From Ditylenchus dipsaci (Eukaryota; Nematoda; Chromadorea; Rhabditida; Anguinidae): DNA of 64,000 nucleotides. Below, piece after piece: positions 15,870 to 54,520 of the stretch. Each line of letters opens with the position of its first letter. Position 1 is the stretch's first letter. The notes beneath the pieces are model-generated. The model saw only the letters and a program-made list of their open reading frames with translations, was not told where the DNA came from and did not search any database. The translations under genes were made by a program, and so were the position numbers. The stretch is from contig SADC01000305.1 in assembly GCA_004194705.1 (NCBI GenBank), forward strand, positions 53,223 through 117,222, given 5' to 3'.

Positions 15870-15988
15870 GTTTTTGTATCATATGTCTTGTTTTTGATTG
15901 GTTTCAAAGTAATAAGTGCAGATAAGATAAATTCGTGTTTTTGGCAAATCTCTTATTCATTTTTCATTCGTCGTTCAACAGACTAAGC

Positions 15989-17549
15989 ATGTCATCAATT
16001 AGTTTATTTCAAGGTAATTTGAACCTGGACATGCTTTGTGATGTATTTGCTTACTTCAAGCGTCCTCAATTGGATGTCTACTCAATTAGCTCCAAGGTTT
16101 TGCGTGAAATAATCTCTAAATATTTCCCTACAGCTCCACTTAACTATTTTACTATTTTGCTGGACTTTGAAGAAGGACGCCGTCAAAATAATAGAATATT
16201 CTCCATATTTACTAAAGTTTGGTATAATCAATGTGGTTCATTAGTGAGATGTAGTGGAAAGGACTGTAAGACAGTTCTTCGGAACGCAAACACTACAAAA
16301 GTGGCAGTTAATGAAGTTGTTTTCTATTTGGAACAGTTTTCATTTGTCCAACATTGGAATCAATTTACTGAACAACTTAAGACCATCAATTGTTTACGTG
16401 CAAAGAGCCATCTGAGCGTAATCGTCCTATGCAAGCGTTATGGTAAGAACTTTTTTTTTTTAATCATAAAAGTGTTGTGGAAGCCACTTTTTTTACAGTG
16501 TGCAGTGAAGTTTATTTTGTTTGGTTCGCCACGAACAGAAAAAGGATCACTTGAGATTGACCCGAAAAATCACATTATGGTATTTTCAACGCAATGAATA
16601 CCCTGTACTTTTTTCTAGTATCAAAGTGGTCCAAAACATTGTTTTGTGCTTCGTTGCTGCAAATTCAAAATTTGAAAAGAAACGTTTAAGGCTCGTTCAC
16701 CTAGCAGGGACAGAAATAATAGTTAGTGAAAACCTCTAAGAAGAGTGAACTTTCAGTCATTTCGAAGATCGTTCCAGTAATTTATGGTTTTGGCTTTAAA
16801 GCAGGCAACGTAACTGTACTATTTAAAAAGATTTGTACTTTTTCGGGACTTTTTATTTTCGAAGTTTTTAGTCAAAATCTTTTTTTTTGTGCTCAAATCT
16901 TGATAAGCACTGGATAAAATGGCACTTTTTGACGGAATTGTACTTTTTTGGCCAAGTGTAATTTTTCCAAAAATTTTGAGCTACGTACGCTGCTTTAAGC
17001 TGAATAGATGAATGGAACACCAAAGTAGAAGTATGCGGTGGTATGCCCCAGCTTTTTCAGACAATTTCTTAAGTTTTAATTACCTGTTATTTTAATATTA
17101 CAATTTCGTTTGAAAATGGTTTAAACTTGAAAAAAAGTCAAAAAAGAATGCTTAGATCTAAACAATTTCGGCACCGACTTCTGAAATTTCGGCTGCAGGC
17201 ACCGACTTTCAAAATCACGGCACCAGGCACCTCACCGGGCACCAGTGCCGTTAAAGCACTGGTCTCCGGGATGGCTTTGATGGAGAGAGTCTACTTTTTG
17301 TCATTGAATTTAGATGAAATACGCAAAGTTTTTATTTCTCGCTCATATCATATTCTTTACCAATGCGATGTGCTAGAGCTCAAAGAATCAGATAATATAG
17401 AAGTTACTGATCTGGCTGATTATTTGCACAATATCCCAATAGAACGTCAAGGTAGCCATGCTCTTTGGTTGACGTTTAGAAACAAAAAATGGAAGATGGC
17501 TGAGCAATTTGTGGAATTATTGCAAAAGGTTGGTCTCTTCGCAGGGTAG
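15989..17549 (+). CDS. F-box-like nematode protein, copy 2 (two exons, 229 aa)
   Basis: Exon 1 is 15989-16442 and exon 2 is 17314-17549; the donor is GTAAG, the acceptor TTTAG, and the split GAT codon joins CKRY to DEIRKV. Exon sizes (454 and 236 nt) and phases equal those of copy 1. The F-box-like N-terminus reads LDMLCDVFAYFKRPQLD with ISSKVLREIISKYF. Residues 60-150 differ clearly from copy 1, while exon 2 is almost unchanged, so the two halves evolve at different rates. The likely role is an SCF adaptor, by family analogy. An in-frame upstream ATG at 15935 exists but is not shared with copy 1. Intron 1 (871 nt) contains a hAT-like remnant near its 3' end. Confidence 0.75.
17150..17261. 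mobile_element. hAT end remnant with GGCACC words
   Basis: The right end TTAAAGCACTG, preceded by GGCACC/CCGGGCACC words, resembles inverted hAT element B (CAGTGATGTAAAAGCACC). The left end was not found. It lies in intron 1 of F-box-like copy 2. Confidence 0.5.
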
Positions 17550-33054: not shown

Positions 33055-34929
33055 TATTTATCAACTTTTGTAGTTCACTGCGCTTTTGTTGCAGATGGTG
33101 AATATATATATGGAATATGCGCATTTCGATTGTAAACCAGCCGCTTATCAGCCTTCCAGCAAAAGTTTGACAAGCCAGAAGAAGAGTATCTAGAAGATCC
33201 AGCAAACATTGATATTTCTTGGTAATTTCCTCCTTGTTGTTCGTTGTAAATTGTTATTTGTCTGAATAAAAGATCACGAAAATTTGAGAATTTATCTTAC
33301 GTATTTTCATGTGAAAATAGGTGGCCAGAGCGCTATCTAAGTTCTGTGTTGCATGAACATGTACTTAGAAAGCTGGTCTAGATGTTTTGATAAAAATTCC
33401 AAATTTTTTGAAAAACTGTCTTGAATCGATCGTCTCGAATCGTACCTATCTCGAATCGACCGTCTCGAATCGTACCTGTCTCGAATCGACCGTCTCGAAT
33501 CGTACCTATCTCTAATCGACCGTCTCGAATCGTACCTGTCTCGAATCGGCCGTCTCGAATCAGATTTGTCTCGAATCGACCCTTGTCCTAACAGTAAAGA
33601 CTTACCAACGTAGTTGACTTCGAACCATTCCAAAATCGGTTCGAGAGGTGCCAAACATTCGGTTGCTTCAAAGTGATCGTCCAATTCAGTCAATGCTATT
33701 TCGATGTCATCAGGACGCAGGAAAGCCATCGCCACAATCATTCTTGTCCCTTCGCTAAACGATCCTCCTTCTCTGTATTTCTTGAGCAGATCTAGAAGAA
33801 AGCAATTTTAGCACCCTACAAATATTCGAAGTACTTACTGTTTGTCCCGAGATGTTTTTTCATACTTTTCACCAAATGAAAAAGACATCCACGAAGCTGC
33901 TTTCCAGGAAAAGCAGTCTTCAGAGAATTTATCAGTGCCACTTCGTAGTCTAGATTTGCAGTTGTCGGATTAAATTCAGGCCAAAGTGTTCGGATCATCT
34001 TCCACTTTTTCTTATATATGGCTTTTGACTTGGACGGTAGAAGGACGTATAGCAACGGCAGCACGAATCCCTGACGTTCTCCCATGATGAAAAAGACCTA
34101 CAACAAACAAATCATTGCTATAACCTGAAAATGATAACCTGGTAAAAGTATTGGGTGAAACGCTGAAGGTTCCATCAACAAAAATCTTTCGGACCAGTTT
34201 ATTCACCGAGGTTGCACTGCGTCCAAAGATCAAAATTCTGAAAGGAAACGATTGAGAAATTGAGAAAAAAGATATAAGAGAAAACAAACCGGTTCGGGTC
34301 CAGCTGTTGGCTTCCAGAGTCGGCTAACAAGAAAAGTTCCTCTACGTCCGACTCAGGCGAATAGTACTGGTATTGGCGAGGGATGACATATAGTTGACGA
34401 GAAGCTGGCATTGGCGGTGTTTGATCACAATTTCCAGCCTCGCTCTATTGATCTTTTTTTTTGCGCAAAAAGCATTCGGAATTTGTCCCTTCACGAAGTC
34501 CGGCTGGTTTCCCACTGCAGACGAAATGATTTGAGATGGCAGCTTGGAAGTTAACAAGGAGTTATGTCTGGAAGGAGGTTTATATAAGGAATAATCACTT
34601 CTTGCGTTTTTTTGGTCCTTTCACGTATTGTTTGATAACGTCGTGTACGGCTTTGCGCCCAGGATTTGTCTCATGATTGTGGTCAGACGTCTCGCCAGTG
34701 ATCTTGTTTCCGGAGTCGGTACGGAGACGCTTGGGCATCGATCGGATTTGTACTTGTCGCATTTCCACATCTTGCTCTTGTCCGCAGCGGGCTTCTGCAA
34801 CCAAAAGAGATGACCACCATAGCTCAGTTTCTGCTTCCCTTTTTCTGACATAGTTGTTTCCGGCGTCTTAAAATATAGGATTATCGTAAATCTAACAAAA
34901 AATCTAAAAAAAACCGATGGCACCAAATC

Positions 34930-35480
34930 TCCGAGATGCTGCTGAATTTCTTCGCCTTCGTCGCTTTCAACACTGGAGTAATACCCCCAAGCGCATCCAA
35001 AGCACTGCGAACTGGATTCATATCACTTGTTAGCTTGGCCTGAAAATAGAATTCAGCGTTGAAAGTAGAATTTGTGGGACACTATAAAACATAAAATTCA
35101 AAACAGGTGAAAAACATCAGCAGTTAACAAGATCTTGCGAATCTTTTTCAGAAAATATTTTCAATATTTTTAATTGAACGGGGATCAATCGGCCGGGGAT
35201 TAATCGGAGGAACTTATTGGGTTAGGGGGGGGGGGAATTTCACTTATTTAAAAATAGTGTTAAACGACTCCTAAGTAATTTTTATATGCTTGAAACGATA
35301 AAAAAGTTATTTCTAACATTTTTCCACACAAAAAATGGTATTTTTGAAAAAATTTTTTGACCTTTTGCCTTGGGGGACCAAGGCAAATTACCTTGTATTG
35401 AGGTATTCTACCCCGTTTTGGTCACTGAAGCTGGGCAAAAAGAGTCTCTAAATGCATTTTTGTTCAAGAGTCTTGCTCGA
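34930..35480. other. stretch without recognisable gene
   Basis: No gene seen. Segments from about 35230 (TTTATATGCTTGAAACGATA) pair inversely with 36100-36200, giving a loose inverted repeat around the composite repeat at 35.48-36.05 kb. Confidence 0.35.
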
Positions 35481-43856: not shown

Positions 43857-44224
43857 GGCTAGGATACATTTGGCAAAAACGAAACTTGGCAAACGTGGGT
43901 TTTGTCAAAACGAATCTTGGCAAAACGAGACTTGTCAAAATGAAACTTGGCAAAACGAAATTTGGCAAAACGAAACTTAGCAAAACGAAAGTTGGCTAAA
44001 AATTGTCTTTTGCGTTTTGAGAGAAGAGAAAAAATTTCGATTTTTAGACATTTTCGGACAACAGGGGGACCAAGGCAATTTTTGCCAACTTTCGTTTTGC
44101 CAAGTTCCGTTTTGCCAAATTTCGTTTTGCAAGTTTCGTTTCGCCAAGTTTCGTTTTTGCCAAGTTTCGTTTTGCCGACTTTCGTTTTTGCCAAGTTTCG
44201 TTTTTTGCCAAATGTATCCTAGCC
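43857..44224. mobile_element. MITE with TTGGCAAAACGAAAC words, 8 bp TSD TTTTTTAC
   Basis: The ends GGCTAGGATACATTTGGC and GCCAAATGTATCCTAGCC are inverted; the TSD TTTTTTAC is at 43849-43856 and 44225-44232. About eight words lie in each arm. Open frames (for example 43947-44222) are produced by the word period. Confidence 0.92.
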
Positions 44225-44232
44225 TTTTTTAC

Positions 44233-45055
44233 TCGGAAGAGCTGTAATTTTTTTCTTCGTTTATCACCAGCCATTGTGTGCGAAGCCTTTTACACTCAAT
44301 AGTCCTTCACATTTTTAGATAAAAGCATTTTTGGATTTAGAAATTTTGGGAATCCGAATTTGAAGTCAAGTTTGGGCTATCAGGCATCTACAGGACTAAC
44401 CAGAACTTTCAGCGTGAAATTTTAAGATGCCGGATAACCGAGGGTGTTACATAAATGGAGTGCCAGATAACCGCGGTTTAACTGTACTACCTTTCAGACA
44501 ATATTTCTACGAAAATTCGGTTTGATTTTTTTCGTATCGAGGTGTATTTGAAAGTCAGAAAATGTTTGCTAAAACAAGAGCTTTGTTGAAAAATTAGTTG
44601 TTCGGCTTTTTTCGCATCAGCTTTTTTCAAATACTTTTTTTTATTCCTTTGGGACAAATGTTGAGAAATTTTCTGTGTTAAAGTTTTTTGAAAAGCGCAG
44701 TTTGATGCAGCTTTCCTGCTTTGTCGAATTATAATGTTTGTTTTGCGTTTTTTGTGCATCTAGAGCAAGTTCGATGGCTTTTTGTGAAAATGTCAATTTT
44801 TATAATGTCTGGTTAGTCAACATTTTGGTCTTTTTAAAAGTCGTTTTCAGCACAGGTATTGGGTTGAATAAAATAATCTGTTTTGCTTTTGGAAGTAATT
44901 CAAATTTTTTGAACGAAGTATCATTTTAAATTAACGCAGCATAGCGTTATCCTCACTATAAAGGTACCTATTACTGTTTCAACGAAGAGTTACAACTTTT
45001 ATTTTTTTGGCAAGAATGTTGTGTGTCTTTTTCAATACGCTCTGATTTTATGTCA
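44233..45055. other. stretch without recognisable gene
   Basis: AT-rich. No element ends, arrays or gene motifs recognised. Confidence 0.3.
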
Positions 45056-45061
45056 CAAAAA

Positions 45062-45580
45062 CTATTGTAGAGTATATCGCTTGACAATATATAATGTCAT
45101 ATTTTCCTGTTGAAGTGTAGGCTTTTTGCTGACCCATTCTCGAACACGTTCTCGAGTGAATAGATTATCCACAACCTCTTGCAGAGGTGCCTCATCATGT
45201 GGCTTCACTATTTTACAACACAGAGAAAAATTGAAAGGCAAATAGATTTGGCAAAGTCCTAAATATAAAGCATGATTTCTTATAAGTTTGTGTGAAAAAG
45301 AATTACAAAAAGGTAAGAAGGGGCACTTTTTAACTTTTTTGACTGAAACGACAAAGGGGGCACTTTTTTGCCAAAACCGGAATTTTTCTGTTTTGTCCAA
45401 ATAACAACTGTGTGTATTGCAAGGCTTGCCGTATTTTAATAAAGCGCAGTTGTAAAGATTGTCTAAAAGACCGATTATAGATCACCGACCCTCAGTATTT
45501 TTTTTCTAATTTTTAATAATATTTAACAAAAATTATCAATATTTTAAATGCCATAGTCTCATTAATACCGAATACCAGGG
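45062..45580 (-). pseudogene. copy of the last F-box-like exon and its upstream intron
   Basis: Minus-strand reading FSLCCKIVKPHDEAPLQEVV, with ENMTLYIVKRYTLQ at the end, matches 27479-27642. The upstream intron words (AAGGGGCACTTTTT, TGACTGAAACGACAAAGG) also match. Three copies now exist in the window (27.5, 45.1, 61.1 kb). No earlier exons are present here. Confidence 0.6.
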
Positions 45581-45589
45581 AACTGCAAA

Positions 45590-45855
45590 AGTCCTAAATA
45601 GGACTATTTTGGGACTATGTGGTCCTAAAATAGTCCTAAAATAGGACTATTTTAAAAAGGTCCTAAAATAGGACTATTTCAAAATAGCCCTAAAATAGGG
45701 CTCTAGGTCAATTGGTCCACGGTCAATTGGTCCACGGTCAATTGATCCACGGTCAATGGTTATGGGTAAAAATCCCCCCGCAAAAATCCCCCCAGCAAAA
45801 ATCCCCCAACAAAAATCCCCCAGCAAAAATCCCCCCAGCACAAATCCCCCAGAAT
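45590..45855. repeat. left end of a mosaic word-array element
   Basis: Three arrays in order: TCCTAAAATAGGACTATTT words (45590-45700), GGTCAATTGGTCCAC words (45709-45760) and AAAAATCCCCCCAGC words (45770-45850). The same three arrays occur inverted at 52020-52520, on the other side of the 5,453 bp palindrome. The arms are parts of one element split by it. Confidence 0.75.
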
Positions 45856-46463
45856 AGAAATTGAAATTAAATGGACATTTATTCACGGACTCGGACTTAA
45901 AATAAGCAAATTATTGTCAATATTATCAATGTGTTAATCAAAATTGGGACCTAAACACGGTTTTATAATACCAAAATATCGGTTTTGCTATTCGGAATCC
46001 CCGCATCGAGCTAGAAAAATACCTTAACTACCTGAGGGTACCTGAGGCTACCATGTAAGCATCTTAACCGATGCTGGCAGCAAACACCAATTTTTCTAAC
46101 CAAACAGCTTCAAAATTCCTATTTCGGTTACTTTAGCATAGCAACAACCTATAATTCAACTTCCCAAGAATTGGTAGTAGGGCAAGAAGAGTAGTACCCC
46201 CTAAAAGTGGAGACTTCGTCCCACGTGGAAAACTTTTTTATTGCGGTATTTTAAAACCAAGATTCCCACTTGGGACGAAGTCCCCACTTTTTAGACTAAA
46301 AATTATACTAAAATTCTGCACTACACTATTAGCCAAAAATATTGAAATAAAGTCAAAGTATAAAAGCAAATAACTTTTATATTATTTATCGGTTCTGAAA
46401 ATTTAATTCAATTTTTTATTAAAAACACACAATACAAAAAACATCTTACAACAAAAACAAACT

Positions 46464-47048
46464 TCAGGGCCGAGTTTCTTCGCGTCTAATACGACGAGCC
46501 AGGTTCATGTCTTTTGGCATAATATGAAATAAAAAAATTAAATTTAAATAAAAAATATAAGTAAAAAAGATGGTGAAACTTACGGTTACACGCTTAGCGT
46601 GTATAGCGCACAAGTTAGAATCTTCGAATAATCCTACCAAGTAGGCTTCACTGGCCTCCTGCAGTGCAAGCATAGTGGAGCCTCTAAAAATTTAACTATT
46701 GATTTGAAAAAAATTTTTTTTTACTGAAATCGCAAGTCTTGCTTGTAGTCTTGTGCTATTTCTCGCACTAAACGTTGGAAAGGCAGTTTGCGAATAAGCA
46801 AATCGTTCGATTTTTGATATCGTCTTATGTCTCGAAGCGCCACCGTTCCTGCAAAAAAAAATAAAATAAATATTTTTGAAAAAATTTGATTTACCGGGAC
46901 GGTAACGATGCCTAAAAATAAAAATTTAACAACATATGAAATAATTTTCCTCCATACGGTTTTTTAATGCCTGTATTTCCAGGAAGTTGCCTTGGGGGCT
47001 TTTGGGAAACATCAGTTTTTGCCGAAGGTTTTTTTTACTACGGGCCAT
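46464..47048 (-). pseudogene. histone H3-like gene in left terminal repeat
   Basis: Minus strand, mirror of the copy at 50703-51284. The conserved core is [47 protein letters not shown] and [11 protein letters not shown], then [20 protein letters not shown]3 forms the nucleosome core with H4. The tail exon starts MARSKKNLRQK but does not reach the TGIKKPHRYRPGT segment in frame (92 nt before His39, one short of a multiple of three). The last intron is read through in frame in this copy and ends CAT instead of CAG. Both points suggest a damaged or unusually expressed gene. Confidence 0.75.
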
Positions 47049-47384
47049 CTGAAGTAAAAGTATCAAATGGAATGATTCGAAAAATTAAATTAAATCACAG
47101 AAGCTAAATTTTTTTGTATTTCAGTGCAAGGTATGCAATAATCAAGAAAAATTAAAAAATGAAGCTGAAAAGTTTGTGTGTTTCAAGGAAATTTGAAAAG
47201 TGTCGGAATGCCAACTCAATCTTTTTACAGTTTTTAAACTTTATTTTTATAATAGTGAAAATTAGCGTGATATCTGTTATTTTTAACGTTTAACTTGATT
47301 CAACTTTCTGATTTTGTTGAAATTTTCAATAATGTTGTTTATTAACGTATTTTTCGCAATAATTTGTATTTTTTTCCAGGAATA

Positions 47385-47478
47385 ATGAGCAAGACAGCCG
47401 TGCAAGAAACCGCCAGCAAGAAGCAAATGCAGACCTCATTCGAACCACTCAACAATCAAGCCGGAAACGCATATAAGG
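47385..47478 (+). pseudogene. mirror copy of the central gene's first exon
   Basis: Reads MSKTAVQETASKKQMQTSFE then PLNNQAGNAYK before a GTGGGT donor. The functional counterpart is on the minus strand at 50279-50372. Here the exon points into the left tandem repeat and has no continuation on this strand in the centre, so it is a by-product of the palindrome. Confidence 0.6.
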
Positions 47479-47479
47479 T

Positions 47480-48209
47480 GGGTTTACATATTTTTTAATA
47501 ATATTCCCAACGACATTAACCAAAACCCACCCCCCCCCCCCCCATTTGTCCCAAAGTCACTTAAAACCAACAAAACCGCATAAATCACTTGAAATGACCA
47601 AGACCACCCCAAAATCACCGAAAACATGCAAAAATATCCAACATCACCGAAACCATCCAAAACCACCAAAATTACCGAAACCAGCCAAAACCACCCGAAA
47701 TTACCCAGAACCACCCAAAAAGCACCCAAACCCCCCCCCATACCATCCGAACCAATTTAAAGTCACCGAAAACCAGCGAAACCACATAAATCACTTAAAA
47801 TCCACTAAGGCCTCCCAATATTACCGAAACTGCTCAAAACTAACAAAAATTACCGAAACCAGCCAGAATCACCCGAAATCACCCGACAACACCCAAAGCA
47901 GCTAAAGCCTACCTAAAATCACCGAAACCAGCCAAAAACACCCAAAATTACCGGAATCATCCAAAACTACCTGAAATCACCGAAACCAACCAAAACCATC
48001 CAAACCAATAAAAAGTTACCTAAAACCAACGAAACCGCATAAATCACTCGAAATGGACCAAGACCACCCAAAATCGCTGAAAACATTTAAAAACACCCAA
48101 TATCACCAAAACCACCCAAAACTAGCAAAAATTACCGAAATCAGCCAAAACCACCGGAAATCACCCGACACCACCCAAAAGCAGCTAAAACTCACCAAAA
48201 CCGTCCAAA
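47480..48209 (+). repeat. degenerate ACCACCCAAAATCACCGAA tandem, left arm
   Basis: About 35 imperfect units of roughly 20 bp (ACCACCCAAAA, TYACCGAAACCAGCC). Poor in G on this strand. The inverse occurs at 49200-50270. Confidence 0.85.
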
Positions 48210-48399
48210 GTTCAAGACGCTTGCCACGACCAGACGGGACACAAAAGAGACGTAGAAATGCCTATACCATGGCATACATTTTTTTAACGACACCTGAGTT
48301 TGCTTCTAATCAAAAAAGCAAAAATAAAAAAGCGCAAAACGCAATAATCAGAGTTTTAACAGGCGCACCACTGCCACAAAGCGCTTAAATTACCTAACT

Positions 48400-50372
48400 T
48401 TATATTTTAAAGTAAAAAACCAACTTTAGTTCACGTCGTTTTTTTGCATGTGCTGCATTTTTGGACCGTTGTCTTTCACTTCTATTTCTGTGCTTCTTCT
48501 TGCCTGGCTGCACAGTCTGTGTATCAGAGACGGCAGCACCACTGGACGTGATTGTGGTGATATTGGCTGCTGTAATCTTGTCACCGACCCTTCTGCTATC
48601 TCACAAGAAGTGGGGTCACTGGAATTGTGCTGAAATCAAAACTTTATTAGAGAAGTGACTGATGTGCACTACCTCTTCCAAAAGATCCATGTGTTTCTTT
48701 GAAGGTGAAGACTCTGGCGTAAAGACCCATCGAGAGCTCTTCTGAAAATTTGAAAAATCATATAAGAACACTATTTGTAAACAAACCAATTGGGCGGCGT
48801 AGTGGCAGAAGATCGATCAAAGCATTAACATCCTCATCCAAATTGTAGGCATCATTCTGCTCTTGAATTGAGTCGTCATCTGAAGACTCTTCGCCGTCCG
48901 TGCTACGATCTGCACTTGATAGATCTTCTCCATCAGCTATGGCGGCTTCCTCTCTACAATCGATGACGTGGCCTGAGAATGGATCTCCTAAGTTCTCCTC
49001 CTCTTCTTCTTCATCCACATCTCTCCTGAGGTTGACATAAAACTTCTTCAGAATTCCTGGCTCGCAAGGCAGCTTCCGTTCACGCAATTCTTTAAGTTTC
49101 AGAATGCGCTGCCTCTCTCTGTCTTGGATGCGCCGGATTACTAATCCTCTCTCTCTAAAATAATGGTTTACAAGGCCTTATAGGGTTTATCTTGTTTGTT
49201 TTTGGCTGTTTATGATGGTTTCGATGATTTTTGTGGTCTTGGACGATTTCGACTGCTATTTGTGATTTCGTTGGTTTTATAGTTTTTATAGGTTTAAATG
49301 TTTGGTGGGTTTTCGGGTTTTTTTCGGACTTGTTTTGGGTGATTTCAGGTGGTTTGGCTGGTTTCGGTGATTTTAGGTAGTTTTGGGGTGATACGATGAT
49401 TTTGGGTGTATTTGGATGGTTTTAGTGAATTTTTGCTAGTTTTGGGTGGTTTCGGTGATATTGGGTGTCTTTAAATGTTTTCGGTGATTTTGAGCGGTCT
49501 TGATCGAGTTCGAGTGATTTATGCAGTTTCGTTGGTTTCAAGTGACTTTTTATTGTTTTTGGACGGTTTTGGTGAGTTTTAGCTGCTTTTGGTGGTGTCG
49601 GGTGATTTCCGGTGGTTTTGGCTGATTTCGGTAATTTTGCTAGTTTTGGGTGGTTTTGGTGATATTGGGTGTTTTTAAATGTTTTCAGCGATTTTGGGTG
49701 GTCTTGGTCCATTTCGAGTGATTTATGCGGTTTCGTTGGTTTTAGGTAACTTTTTATTGGTTTGGATGGTTTTGGTTGGTTTCGGTGATTTCAGGTAGTT
49801 TTGGATGATTCCGGTAATTTTGGGTGTTTTTGGCTGGTTTCGGTGATTTTAGGTAGGCTTTAGCTGCTTTTGGGTGTTGTCGGGTGATTTCGGGTGATTC
49901 TGGCTGGTTTCGGTAATTTTGTTAGTTTTGAGCAGTTTCAATAATATTGGGAGCCTTAGTGGATTTTAAGTGATTTATGTGGTTTCGCTGGTTTTCGGTG
50001 ACTTTAAATTGGTTCGGATGGTATGGGGGGGGGGTTTGGGTGCTTTTGGGTGGTTCTGGGTAATTTCGGGTGGTTTGGCTGGTTTCGGTAATTTGGTGGT
50101 TTTGGATGGTTTCGGTGATGTTGGATATTTTTGCATGTTTTCGGTGATTTTGGGTGTCTTGGTCATTTCAAGTGATTTATGCGTTTTGTTGGTTTTAAGT
50201 GACTTTGGGACAAATGGGGGGGGGGGTGGGTTTTTGGTTAATGTCGTGGGAATATTATATAAAAATATGTAAACCCACCCTTATATGCGTTTCCGGCTTG
50301 ATTGTTGAGTGGTTCGAATGAGGTCTGCATTTGCTTCTTGCTGGCGGTTTCTTGCACGGCTGTCTTGCTCAT
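48400..50372 (-). CDS. central gene of the palindromic element: acidic region and basic tail
   Basis: Minus strand. Exon 1 (50372-50279, in the right terminal repeat) reads MSKTAVQETASKKQMQTSFE. A 1.1 kb intron of GGTTTTGGGTGG repeats follows. Exon 2 (about 49152-48787) starts ERGLVIRRIQDRERQRILKL after an AG repeat offering several acceptors, and contains the acidic run DVDEEEEEENLGDPF plus SSDDDSIQEQNDAYNLDEDV. A short exon (about 48741-48673; SSRWVFTPESSPSKKHMDLL) and a basic tail (KKKHRNRSERQRSKNAAHAK, 48500-48440) follow. Exact joins of the last two exons are unsure. Not recognised as any transposase. A basic helix, acidic tract and lysine/arginine-rich tail fit a nuclear, perhaps histone-binding protein, by inference only. 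Confidence 0.5.
49200..50270 (-). repeat. degenerate ACCACCCAAAATCACCGAA tandem, right arm
   Basis: Complement of 47480-48209 plus about 350 bp of extra units (49200-49557). It forms the first intron of the central gene. Confidence 0.85.
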
Positions 50373-50702
50373 TATTCCTGGAAAAAATACAAATTATTGC
50401 GAAAAATACGTTAATAAACAACATTATTGAAAATCAACAAAATCAGAAAGTTGAATCAAGTTAAACGTTAAAAATAACAGATATCACGCTAATTTTCAAC
50501 TATTATAAAAATAAAGTTTAAAAACTGTAAAAAGATTGAGTTGGCATTCCGACACTTTTCAAATTTCCTTGAAACACACAAACTTTTCAGCTTCATTTTT
50601 TTTTTCTTGATTATTGCATACCTTGCACTGAAATACAAAAAATTTAGCTTCTGTGATTTAATTTAATTTTTCGAATCATTCCATTTGATACTTTTACTTC
50701 AG
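50373..50702. promoter_or_regulatory. divergent intergenic region between H3 and the central gene
   Basis: 330 bp separates the two start codons, which point away from each other; the mirror region is 47049-47384. It is AT-rich with no clear TATA arrangement. A 3' splice-like TACTTCAG directly before the H3 ATG suggests a spliced leader site or an untranslated first exon. Confidence 0.45.
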
Positions 50703-51284
50703 ATGGCCCGTAGTAAAAAAAACCTTCGGCAAAAACTGATGTTCCCAAAAGCCCCCAAGGCAACTTCCTGGAAATACAGGCATTAAAAAACCGTATGGAG
50801 GAAAATTATTTCATATGTTGTTAAATTTTTATTTTTAGGCATCGTTACCGTCCCGGTAAATCAAATTTTTTCAAAAATATTTATTTTATTTTTTTTGCAG
50901 GAACGGTGGCGCTTCGAGAGATAAGACGATATCAAAAATCGAACGATTTGCTTATTCGCAAACTGCCTTTCCAACGTTTAGTGCGAGAAATAGCACAAGA
51001 CTACAAGCAAGACTTGCGATTTCAGTAAAAAAAATTTTTTTTCAAATCAATAGTTAAATTTTAGAGGCTTCACTATGCTTGCACTGCAGGAGGCCAGTGA
51101 AGCCTACTTGGTAGGATTATTCGAAGATTCTAACTTGTGCGCTATACACGCTAAGCGTGTAACCGTAAGTTCACCATCTTTTTTACTTATATTTTTTATT
51201 TAAATTTAATTTTTTAAATTTCATATTATGCCAAAAGACATGAACCTGGCTCGTCGTATTAGACGCGAAGAAACTCGGCCCTGA
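50703..51284 (+). pseudogene. histone H3-like gene in right terminal repeat
   Basis: Exon 1 (50703-50792) starts MARSKKNLRQK and ends, in another frame, TGIKKP. A GTATGG...TTTTAG intron and the micro-exon HRYRPG (about 50841-50857) follow. A second intron leads to [40 protein letters not shown], then a third intron, and [18 protein letters not shown] with [11 protein letters not shown]. After GTAAGT the last block [19 protein letters not shown] follows a CAT, not CAG. Loop 1 has normal H3 length, so it is not a typical CenH3. Introns and a shortened, frame-shifted tail set it apart from replication-dependent H3. The tail frameshift (91 nt to His39) argues against a normal product from this copy. 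Confidence 0.78.
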
Positions 51285-51639
51285 AGTTTTGTTTTTGTTG
51301 TAAGATGTTTTTTTTGTATTGTGTGTTTTTCAATAAAAAATTGAATTAAATTTTCAGAACCGATAAATAATATAAAGTTATTTAATATTAATAATATAAA
51401 ATATTATTAATAATAAAATAATATTTAAGTTATTAATAATATAAAGTTATTTGCTTTTATTACTTTGACTTTATTTCAATATTTTTGGCTAATAGTGTAG
51501 TGCAGAATTTTTAGTATAATTTTTAGTCTAAAAAGTGGGGACTTCGTCCCAAGTGGGAATCTTGGTTTTAAAATACCGCAATAAAAAAGTTTTCCACTTG
51601 GGACGAAGTCTCCACTTTTAGGGGGTACTACTCTTCTAG

Positions 51640-52015
51640 GGCATCTTAATAGTTGTACTGAAATGGTAGAACCTAGGTGGTGGAACTTGGGTAGTACTAC
51701 CTCGGCAGTGATACTCACCTAGTAATATCCAGTTATCAGGTATCCAGGTGGCTTTACCTAGTTGGTTAGGATATCCACATAGGAGTTAAGGTCCTTTAGG
51801 CATTGCGAGTTAACTTTATTCTTAAAGTATTGTGAGTAAAACCAATGACTATACTACACCCTCCAGGCAATAAAGTCATTACCTCGTTTCATGCTTCGGT
51901 ACTCCGGTTTACATCGGCACTGGGACGTCTTTAACTATAAAATAGTGTTCATGACATGATTTTAGTTAGAATACCGTGGTTTTGAAATACATTTGCTTAG
52001 ATACATTTGCCACAT
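51640..52015. other. right flank of the palindrome, no gene recognised
   Basis: Interior of the interrupted mosaic element. TACCTAGTTGGTTAGGATATC-type words only. Confidence 0.3.
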
Positions 52016-52019
52016 TTCA

Positions 52020-52525
52020 ATTTTTATTCTGGGGGAATTTTTATGGGGGGATTTTTGCTGGGGGATTTTTACTGGGGGGATTTTGTTGGGGGGATTTTTG
52101 CTGGGGGATTTTTACCCATAACCATGACTACTTGTTTGGGTTGGTGCGTGGATTAACCAGTAGGGTTAAGGCTGAATTATCGAAAAACTGTTTAAATGAC
52201 AGAAGTTCTTCACAAGACATAAAAGATTAATTTGAAAATAATTTTGTGGAGCAATTGACCTGTGGACCAATTGACCTGTGGACCAATTGACCTGTGGACC
52301 AATTGACCTGTGGACCAATTGACCTGTGGACCAATTGATCTGTGGACCAATTGACCTGTGGACCAATTGATCTGTGGACCAATTGACCTGTGAACCAATT
52401 GACCTGTGGACCAATTGACCTGTGACCAATTGACCTGTGGAGCACTTGACCTGTGGACCAATTGACCGCACGCCCTAAAATAGGGCTATTTGAAAATAGT
52501 CCTACTTAAGAACTATTTTTTCTGA
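52020..52525. repeat. right end of the mosaic word-array element
   Basis: GGGGGATTTTTGCTG words (52025-52120), a shared block GATTAACCAGTAGGGTTAAG (also at 57935 and 58750), about thirteen 16 bp GTGGACCAATTGACCT units (52247-52465), then CCCTAAAATAGGGCTATTT. Inverse order of 45590-45855. Confidence 0.8.
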
Positions 52526-52629
52526 GACGAATTCTAATTTGCATTTGAAATTTGGATTTTTATTGTATCTTTTATTAATTTTTGTATATTTTTCACACTT
52601 TTTGAAAAAAGTGTGAAAAATGTTTTTGT

Positions 52630-54520
52630 TTGTTATTTGTCTTTTAGGTGAATTGTCTTCATTGGATCGAAAGGTGATGCATTTCATTGCTTGTACAAAT
52701 CAGCCATTGTCCGTTCTGGAAGAGCCTACTTTCAAAGCGTTGCTATCAATTGGTGATCGAGATGCATTGCAAGGTCTCTTGAAATAAGGTTAATTCTACA
52801 TGTAACTCATGTTTGTTTATTTTTACAGGCCGAAAACATTTCACAAACTTCGTTTTGCCGCGTGTTTACGATCGCGTAAAGATCAAAATCCAAAAAGAGC
52901 TTTCCAAGTGTTGTGCTCTTTCGTTTACCTGCGATATTTGGTCCGGCTCAACAGCAAGCTTTATCAGGTAAATCAATGCCATTCATGGTGTTCCAGGAGA
53001 AGTCTACGGTTGTTGTTTTAGCCTAACTGCTCATGGAATCGAAGCATCTTGGACAAGACAGAAGTACACTCTTTGTGTTCGGCACTTTCCTGGTGGGCAC
53101 AACTTCCTTACTATTGGGGCGATTGTACAAGAAATGTTAGTGGAATGGAAGATCGAAGAATCAAAGTGGCATGTTTTCGTTCGGGATGGGGCCGGAAATA
53201 TGTGCAAAGTAAGAGTATCTATTCTTTACAACCTGGTTTTAAAAATTGTTTCAGGCTTTTGAAGAAGGAGGATTTCTACATGCCGATTGTGGGGCTCACA
53301 AAATCAACTTAATCGTGCGAAATTCCGTCTTTGCAGCGCTGGATGTGAAATCAATGTCGGAGCGTGCGCGCAAATTGGTCGGTCATTTCAACCACTCAAA
53401 CTTGGCATACGAGAAGCTGGAGGTTGAACAAGAAAAGGAAGGTCTGCCAAAGCATCGTTTGATCCAGGTATTTTGCAAAGTGCTTTTTTATGGTGAACCT
53501 AACTTTTTTATAGGATGAACCTACACGGTGGAATTCTACTCTCTACATGTGTCAAAGACTTTCGGAGCAGAAGTCAGCTCTTCGGCTGTATTGCACGCGC
53601 CAGGGAAACGAGTAGATGACTTGAACGAAGATGAATGGATGCTGATGAACGAATTGGTAAAGCTGCTCGAACCGTTTGAAGGTGCCTCAAATCAGATGTG
53701 TGAAGATGCCTCGTCTCTCTCTATTCAACTCCTATTGCCAAGATGCTAGCTCGTGGTTTGGATCAAATGATTGGGGGACAATTGCAGCCGATTGTGGAGA
53801 AGATGTGGATTCTGTTACGCGAGAAATTCTTCAATCTGGACGAAACAAGTTAATTTTATTTCAGTAATGTATTTATTGTCTAACGAACTTTCAGGATTCA
53901 TGGCCTCGCCATCTTTCTCGATGTTCGATTCAAAGATCGTGTTGCGGACGACAAAGCCTACTTTTTGAGACAAGTGACTTATTGGATCTGCTTGGAGAAC
54001 CTCAACACCGATTTGTGGGCGGATACATTAGAAGCTGGTAGATATTTTACTTTTTATGGATGAATAAAATGCTTTGGTTTTTAGAAGTGAGTTCGCCACC
54101 AGCAAAGCGTCGAACGTCTTCCTCTTTCTTTGGCTCAAACTCCCAATTCTTTACTGACACAACTGAAGCAATTGCGAGTTCCGATGAAGCGAGCGTCATT
54201 GCAGAGATTACAGCCTACACGAAACTGAAGAATCTTGAGCTTGATGAGAATCCTTTGGACTTCTGGAAGGTTTGTTTCAAAATATATTTTGTTATGTTAG
54301 TTGTTATGCATAACCTATTTAGCTAAACGAAAGTCATTTCCAATTTGGCGAAGCTAGCGCAGCGTTATCTCTCTTCACCGGCAAGCAGCGTAGCAAGTGA
54401 GCAGCTCTTCTCAGTGGCTCGCGAGTCAAGTCTTAGTCGGGCAACGCAGAGAAGCTCATATTCTTGAACAAATGTCTTCATCATTGAACTGTTGTTATTG
54501 AAGTTGTGTGTGTTGAGTTG
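52630..54520 (+). pseudogene. hAT transposase (ZBED-like), nearly complete, 5' truncated
   Basis: Plus strand with introns. Segments in order: LSSLDRKVMHFIACTNQPLS and LEEPTFKALLSIGDRDALQ (52655-52787); after an intron, FVLPRVYDRVKIKIQKELSK, then SFTCDIWSGSTASF with the first catalytic D (52840-52968); LTAHGI and the HNFLTIGAIVQEML and VRDGAGNMCK block (53020-53215); GFLHADCGAHKINLIVRN (53268-53321); the DEPTRWNSTLYMCQRLSEQK region (53515-53575); and LSSPASSVASEQLFSVARES, the hATC dimerisation motif (54370-54430). The BED finger is missing upstream, and several frame changes occur, so it is inactive. The fold and motifs make the assignment firm. Confidence 0.85.

Follow-up and report, generated by a model that had tools for sequence, protein, structure and literature searches.

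A palindromic mobile element of the nematode Ditylenchus dipsaci with a histone H3 gene in each arm and a probable kinship to Maverick/Polinton transposons

Histone H3 in a transposon, coding sequence in both terminal repeats of an element and core histones in virus genomes are all already known, as far as the available sections of the publications go. In Dothideomycete fungi, a hAT transposon that captured H3 is mobile and amplified and has inactivated H3 copies; it is ∼9.5 kb long with a hAT transposase and 8-bp duplications, and in the available part of that paper H3 is drawn as separate boxes and is not described within the 20-bp terminal repeats (PMC6710886). Turmoil-1 of Caenorhabditis elegans, a DNA transposon of ∼5 kb, holds captured coding sequence in both long terminal repeats, with one decayed splice site (PMC2572040). 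Giant viruses such as Melbournevirus and medusavirus have core histone genes as doublets or as a full set. Mavericks, also called Polintons, are virus-like transposons which in vertebrates have 6-bp duplications and AG-rich ends (PMC8097293). In plant-parasitic nematodes they belong to the predominant DNA transposons (PMC11118728). According to a meeting report, Mavericks carry genes between nematode species, and those of nematodes have the host-type cargo genes wosp and krma, which are proteases and kinases and not histones (PMC10680173). Here we describe a palindromic element of 5,453 bp (46185..51637, no strand assigned) with an H3 gene in each arm, found in a 64,000-nucleotide stretch of the genome of the nematode Ditylenchus dipsaci (contig SADC01000305.1, positions 53,223 to 117,222; in the following the window, on contig C304 in our numbering).

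Compared with these systems, the window element shares terminal inverted repeats, AG-rich ends and a 6-bp duplication with Mavericks (PMC8097293), and its ends are also those of a resident element on contig C1278. It differs from Mavericks in its size of 5.45 kb, in its 2-kb arms, in having H3 twice and in that no Maverick core gene was found in it. The likeness to Turmoil-1 is one of description only, since that element has a Harbinger transposase and a usual 3-bp duplication, and what it captured are fragments of RRM and cpg-3, not of H3 (PMC2572040). Where giant viruses have histone doublets or a full set, the histone here is a single H3 with introns. A preliminary description of the window, made from its letters alone, held that a transposon carrying H3 had not been described; this is contradicted by the fungal hAT element (PMC6710886). 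The relation to a Maverick with an H3-like gene of its own goes beyond that earlier reading, and in the available sections of the open-licence literature we found no report of H3 as cargo in a Maverick.

The boundaries of the element are sharp. Its termini are inverted (AGAAGAGTAG...CTACTCTTCT, in short AGAAGAGTAGTACCCC ends), and the sequence AGGGCA can be read directly on both sides as a target site duplication (46179..46184 and 51638..51643, plus strand), just as the preliminary description had it. Comparison of one half against the other by blastn places the left arm, a long terminal inverted repeat, at 46185..48209 (plus strand) and the right arm at 49558..51637 (minus strand). For the empty site, a 384-base query made of the two joined flanks, with a single AGGGCA, was compared with the assembly (227 Mb in 1,359 contigs), where the best 40 of 154 candidates were scored. 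Among these, 40 of the 41 reported matches span the junction at 95–99% identity, which is far beyond chance. In all three empty sites that were read (L072, L073 and L074) AGGGCA is present once, while it is double around the window element. The element was therefore inserted in a copy of a high-copy repeat. This target (46000-46184 and 51638-51820) has at least 40 other copies at 95–99% identity, and imperfect inverted repeats at 45756-45867 and 52014-52125 may be its ends.

The arm is also found at two more loci with other flanks, C1184:863-2166 and C809:16652-17938, in both of which only the near end and not the far end is seen. At C1184 the contig starts inside the palindrome, and the C809 copy is a single arm with a decayed centre. 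An extended end pattern is present at five places in the genome at up to 3 mismatches, against none for the reversed control; the one of these on C196 stands alone as a single end, with no H3 match in the surrounding 3 kb. The empty sites and the further copies speak for a mobile element and against a host inversion, and we regard its mobility as practically certain; the preliminary description was right to prefer a mobile element. It is worth noting that AGAAGAGTAG alone had to be rejected as a mark of the family, with 361 forward and 338 reverse places compared with 365 and 338 for the reversed control. A hairpin repeat of ∼160 bp at C8:178101-178268 (L006 and L007) ends in CTACTCTTCT...AGAAGAGTAG and is unrelated to the element, and other AGAAGAGTAG-type pairs at ∼160 bp spacing may be the same C8 repeat.

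An element on C1278 (23245-41571, 18.3 kb) has the same ends when window positions 44001-54000 are compared by blast with ten loci. With up to 3 mismatches allowed, a 29-base pattern from the C1278 end has just two occurrences, which are inverted and lie 18,327 bp apart; the two ends are terminal inverted repeats, 90% identical over 96 bp. Alignment of the C1278 end to the two window ends gives 79–80% identity in 74 bp, with E values of 1.1e-6 and 4.7e-8. To the ends at C1184 and C809 it gives 77% in 94 bp, with an E value of 2.1e-9. Both kinds of end also have a subterminal hairpin, found in the window at 46198..46296 (plus strand) by folding and by alignment of the ends, with a mirror copy at 51526..51624 (minus strand; coordinates mirrored from the first through the ungapped match of the arms). 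The fold z is −7.8 for the left window end, and −10.0 and −3.3 for the right and left ends of C1278. Between its ends, the C1278 element has an integrase match (rve, PF00665, 35208-35426, 38 bits at a cut-off of 32.6) in an open frame of 228 amino acids, and a PolB match (DNA_pol_B_2, PF03175, 28155-28469, 28.5 bits at a cut-off of 25.8). There are weak matches to a double jelly roll (DJR)-like capsid model (PF21738, E 9.3e-5, 22.2 bits, below the cut-off of 27) and to an adenovirus-type protease (PF00770, 17.8 bits, below the cut-off of 21.3). The capsid-type protein has 43 homologues, from nematodes wherever an organism is named (including Meloidogyne, Heterodera and Aphelenchoides), and a UniRef match under Ditylenchus dipsaci at 100% over 100% of the query, with no relatives in viral contigs and phage records. 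From the weak PF21738 match and these nematode homologues it is probably a capsid protein. Going by these domain matches, and with ∼5.7 kb of the middle lying outside the sequence examined, the predicted genes of C1278 are most of the Maverick/Polinton gene set.

A further point of likeness is the H3-like gene of the C1278 element, which lies ∼200 bp inside the left end and points outward, placed as in the window arms. It is a predicted gene whose tail has no settled model. Its C-terminus has the usual third-helix residues, and the three internal TAG codons of the six-frame match all fall within a stretch that reads as an intron. Taking together the precise insertion with a 6-bp duplication, the further copies, and the terminus and subterminal hairpin in common with C1278, we consider the window element likely to be a non-autonomous, palindromic relative of a virus-like Maverick/Polinton transposon of D. 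dipsaci.

Several observations weigh against this kinship. The PolB match on C1278 has stops in the six-frame reading, and therefore either introns or decay; two of the four Pfam matches fall under the curated cut-off; and the C1278 ends have no target duplication (CTTCTA on one side and ATGAGT on the other). The searches for PolB, integrase and capsid gave no match on C304, and the ORFs (open reading frames) of the window element are, besides the H3 exons, repeat translations and an acidic protein, so that it is not an autonomous Maverick. When two pieces of C1278 (L062 and L063) were compared, the arms matched only at the terminus and in one H3 exon. The H3 proteins themselves are far apart: of 84 core residues compared, the C1278 protein has 52 in common with the left arm, 53 with the right arm and 50 with C1184, as against 83 of 95 for either window arm and the canonical host H3. 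Kinship of the window and C1278 H3 by sequence was given up on these figures (52 and 53 of 84), and a single capture is thus not shown and two captures are possible. Finally, the capsid-type gene is present on seven contigs, and H3 is nearby only on C1278 among the matches listed (the histone-model search of the genome scored the best 150 of 333 candidates and gave at least 164 matches). On C1262, the only other contig with both among these matches, the two are 229 kb apart. With H3 near the capsid-type gene in one contig of seven, nothing indicates that the Mavericks of this genome generally have an H3 gene. As a side observation, contigs C21, C882, C52, C89, C1073, C757 and C1262 have Maverick-type PolB, integrase or capsid matches, with no H3 nearby among the matches listed.

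The H3 exons of the window point outward in each arm. The left gene (46464..47048, minus strand) has predicted exons at 46958-47048, 46895-46911, 46725-46848, 46584-46683 and 46464-46523, and histone-model matches of 47.2 and 46.5 bits; the right gene (50703..51284, plus strand) has predicted exons at 50703-50792, 50839-50855, 50901-51024, 51065-51164 and 51225-51284, with 48.4 and 44.7 bits. All four Pfam matches, at 44.7–48.4 bits, are far above the cut-off of 26.4. Each window arm has 83 of 95 core residues in common with canonical host H3 (L026 and L030), which are the closest of the 25 other H3 loci compared; for C1184 the number is 81 of 95. The arm intron between RPG and TV has the same position as in a host gene on C1332. 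On the DNA level, the best match of an arm to another H3 is only 82% over 92 bases, in a type of search that can miss copies, and a close resident parent gene was therefore not seen.

The preliminary description had an H3 coding region in each 2-kb arm, and here the arms and the outward H3 stand, but the coding regions are not intact. The tail exon is frameshifted in three of the four known arms, both window arms included, and is open in C1184 only, and the last splice acceptor has no AG in any of the four; no arm holds a complete open H3 gene. (An early reading of the tail with a GC donor was dropped after comparison of the arms.) The C1184 protein is found in UniRef under Ditylenchus dipsaci at 99% over 86% of the query. 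That model ends early, before the third helix, in keeping with the last acceptor without AG. Either the gene was thus already damaged when the family spread, or homogenisation has made the damage common to the arms. By their sequence, the window H3 copies look decayed, and with both the frames and the last splice site damaged, an effect of these copies on chromatin is unlikely.

H3-like genes in D. dipsaci are not restricted to this family. A second mobile family, 1.6 kb long with CACAGCCC inverted ends, is found at L036:670-2255 (C148) and at L039, and L045 has the H3 part of it. Both copies checked have 4-bp duplications (GTTT in L036 and ATAC in L039), the H3-like gene has internal stops, and there are at least 12 full-length matches including the query and two that are nearly full (the best 40 of 1,083 candidates). 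Together with the window element, this means that H3 entered mobile elements of D. dipsaci at least twice. In addition, H3 variants whose tails are changed or extended (TKQTAHKTVGGKTPSKQTAHKTVAGKAPRK) are found at L034, L048 and L050 (C975 and C1295, with several on C1295).

A different origin for the window element would be a cut-and-paste DNA transposon of another superfamily that captured H3 independently and came to have Maverick-like ends by convergence. Such captures do occur, as the H3 of the fungal hAT element (PMC6710886) and the CACAGCCC family of D. dipsaci itself both illustrate, and the distance between the window and C1278 H3 proteins would fit. The 6-bp duplication, however, is neither the 8 bp of hAT (PMC6710886) nor the usual 3 bp of Harbinger (PMC2572040), so that the element belongs with neither on this measure. 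Convergence is also hard to square with terminal matches of 74–94 bp at E values of 1.1e-6 to 2.1e-9 and with a hairpin at both kinds of end, and we consider an independent origin unlikely. It could also be asked if the palindrome is a host inverted duplication or an artefact of assembly. In the C1184 copy the contig breaks off within the palindrome, and such sequence is therefore hard to assemble. Against this, the paralogous empty sites have a single AGGGCA, and the same sharp end is present at three loci with different flanks, which leaves hardly any probability for an inversion or an artefact.

Another question is whether the element has kept H3 as a working gene with a role in chromatin, such as DNA packing or escape from silencing. 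The proportion of silent differences between arm H3 and host L026 is saturated (pS ∼0.90) while few replacements are seen (pN 0.09–0.10), there is no close resident parent gene, and the open tail exon of C1184 gives a shortened tail without an ARKS motif. On the other hand, a control pair of host H3 genes is equally saturated (pS 0.84, pN 0.055). The constraint can for this reason not be placed inside the element and may predate the capture, and dN/dS (the ratio of replacement to silent change) was rejected as proof of H3 function in the element, also because the path counting charges replacements even at identical residues. Among the arms, replacements exceed silent changes (2:0, 4:1 and 4:1), and the frameshifts and lost acceptors described above also speak against a working gene. 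Taken together, a working H3 is improbable.

If the window element is a Maverick relative, its most likely origin would be as follows. Next to one of its termini, an ancestor of these elements would have taken up an H3 gene with introns, from a host gene in D. dipsaci or in another species. Maverick-type elements are thought to replicate by protein priming, and strand switching or fold-back copying is known for defective genomes of linear viruses. During such protein-primed replication, the nascent strand may have switched template or folded back, and the H3 end with the next exon would have been copied on to the opposite end, giving a short palindrome in which the H3 end is present on both sides. 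A Maverick integrase would then have recognised the ends in trans and made the 6-bp staggered insertion; the H3 genes of the window copy would since have been decaying passengers. A literature search for an adenovirus panhandle precedent of palindrome formation gave none. A more far-reaching version is that a nematode Maverick lineage kept H3 as working cargo, a viral variant with a shortened tail without the usual silencing motifs, and that the palindrome is an interfering-like, defective genome by which the H3 end is multiplied. This is very doubtful; if true, a viral H3 variant could pack the DNA of the element or render its chromatin difficult to silence.

As regards the age of the element, the preliminary description took the arms to be old, and the substitution counts do not bear this out. 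In the outer part, the two arms differ by 4 substitutions in ∼1,290 aligned bases. Over the first 2,000 bases, MAFFT gives 18 substitutions, 13 of them inward of position 47384 in the minisatellite region, and blastn pieces over nearly the same 2,000-base stretch give 9, with more gaps than MAFFT. The remaining differences are mostly changes in the length of single-base runs, which may be assembly errors, and one AT-rich expansion of ∼68 bp in the right arm; it is because of these length changes and the expansion that the blast identity of the arms is only 93%. The arms are thus not clearly old. Dating the element by arm identity was rejected, because the arms may be homogenised.

Inside the H3 genes, each arm has a predicted inward exon (MSKTAVQE...), at 47385..47477 (plus strand) on the left and at 50280..50372 (minus strand, that of the central coding pieces) on the right. 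The preliminary description had a central gene with its first exon in one arm; the exon is there, but in both arms, and like the exon the central gene is a prediction only. Its predicted pieces (48424..49154, minus strand; exons 48787-49154, 48673-48741 and ∼48424-48629, an exon model of our own reading) would encode an acidic protein, for which no relatives at E ≤ 1 were found among 475 candidates. The only other DNA match reported for them is the decayed C809 copy. A comparison with PHROGs gave weak matches only, none with a named function. Minisatellite arrays (AAAACCACCGAAACC-like, with units of ∼10, 19 and 29 bp) are spread, with gaps, over 47598..48202 (plus strand), and their mirror arrays, likewise with gaps, over 49334..50156 (minus strand). 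Elsewhere in the window, positions 33819-35022 (minus strand) hold remains of a MULE transposon with a MULE transposase domain and a FLYWCH zinc finger, and two related ORFs without a Pfam match (MSSISLFQGNLNLDMLCDVFAYF..., at 2305-2802 and 15926-16594) may be a nematode-specific family.

With a captured gene in each of its arms, the palindrome is a natural case for studying the origin of long terminal repeats and of defective derivatives. Beyond this, the window and C1278 elements suggest that chromatin genes can be cargo of virus-like elements. With a core histone as Maverick cargo, animals would have a link between virus-like elements and chromatin like the one that the histones of giant viruses make in protists.

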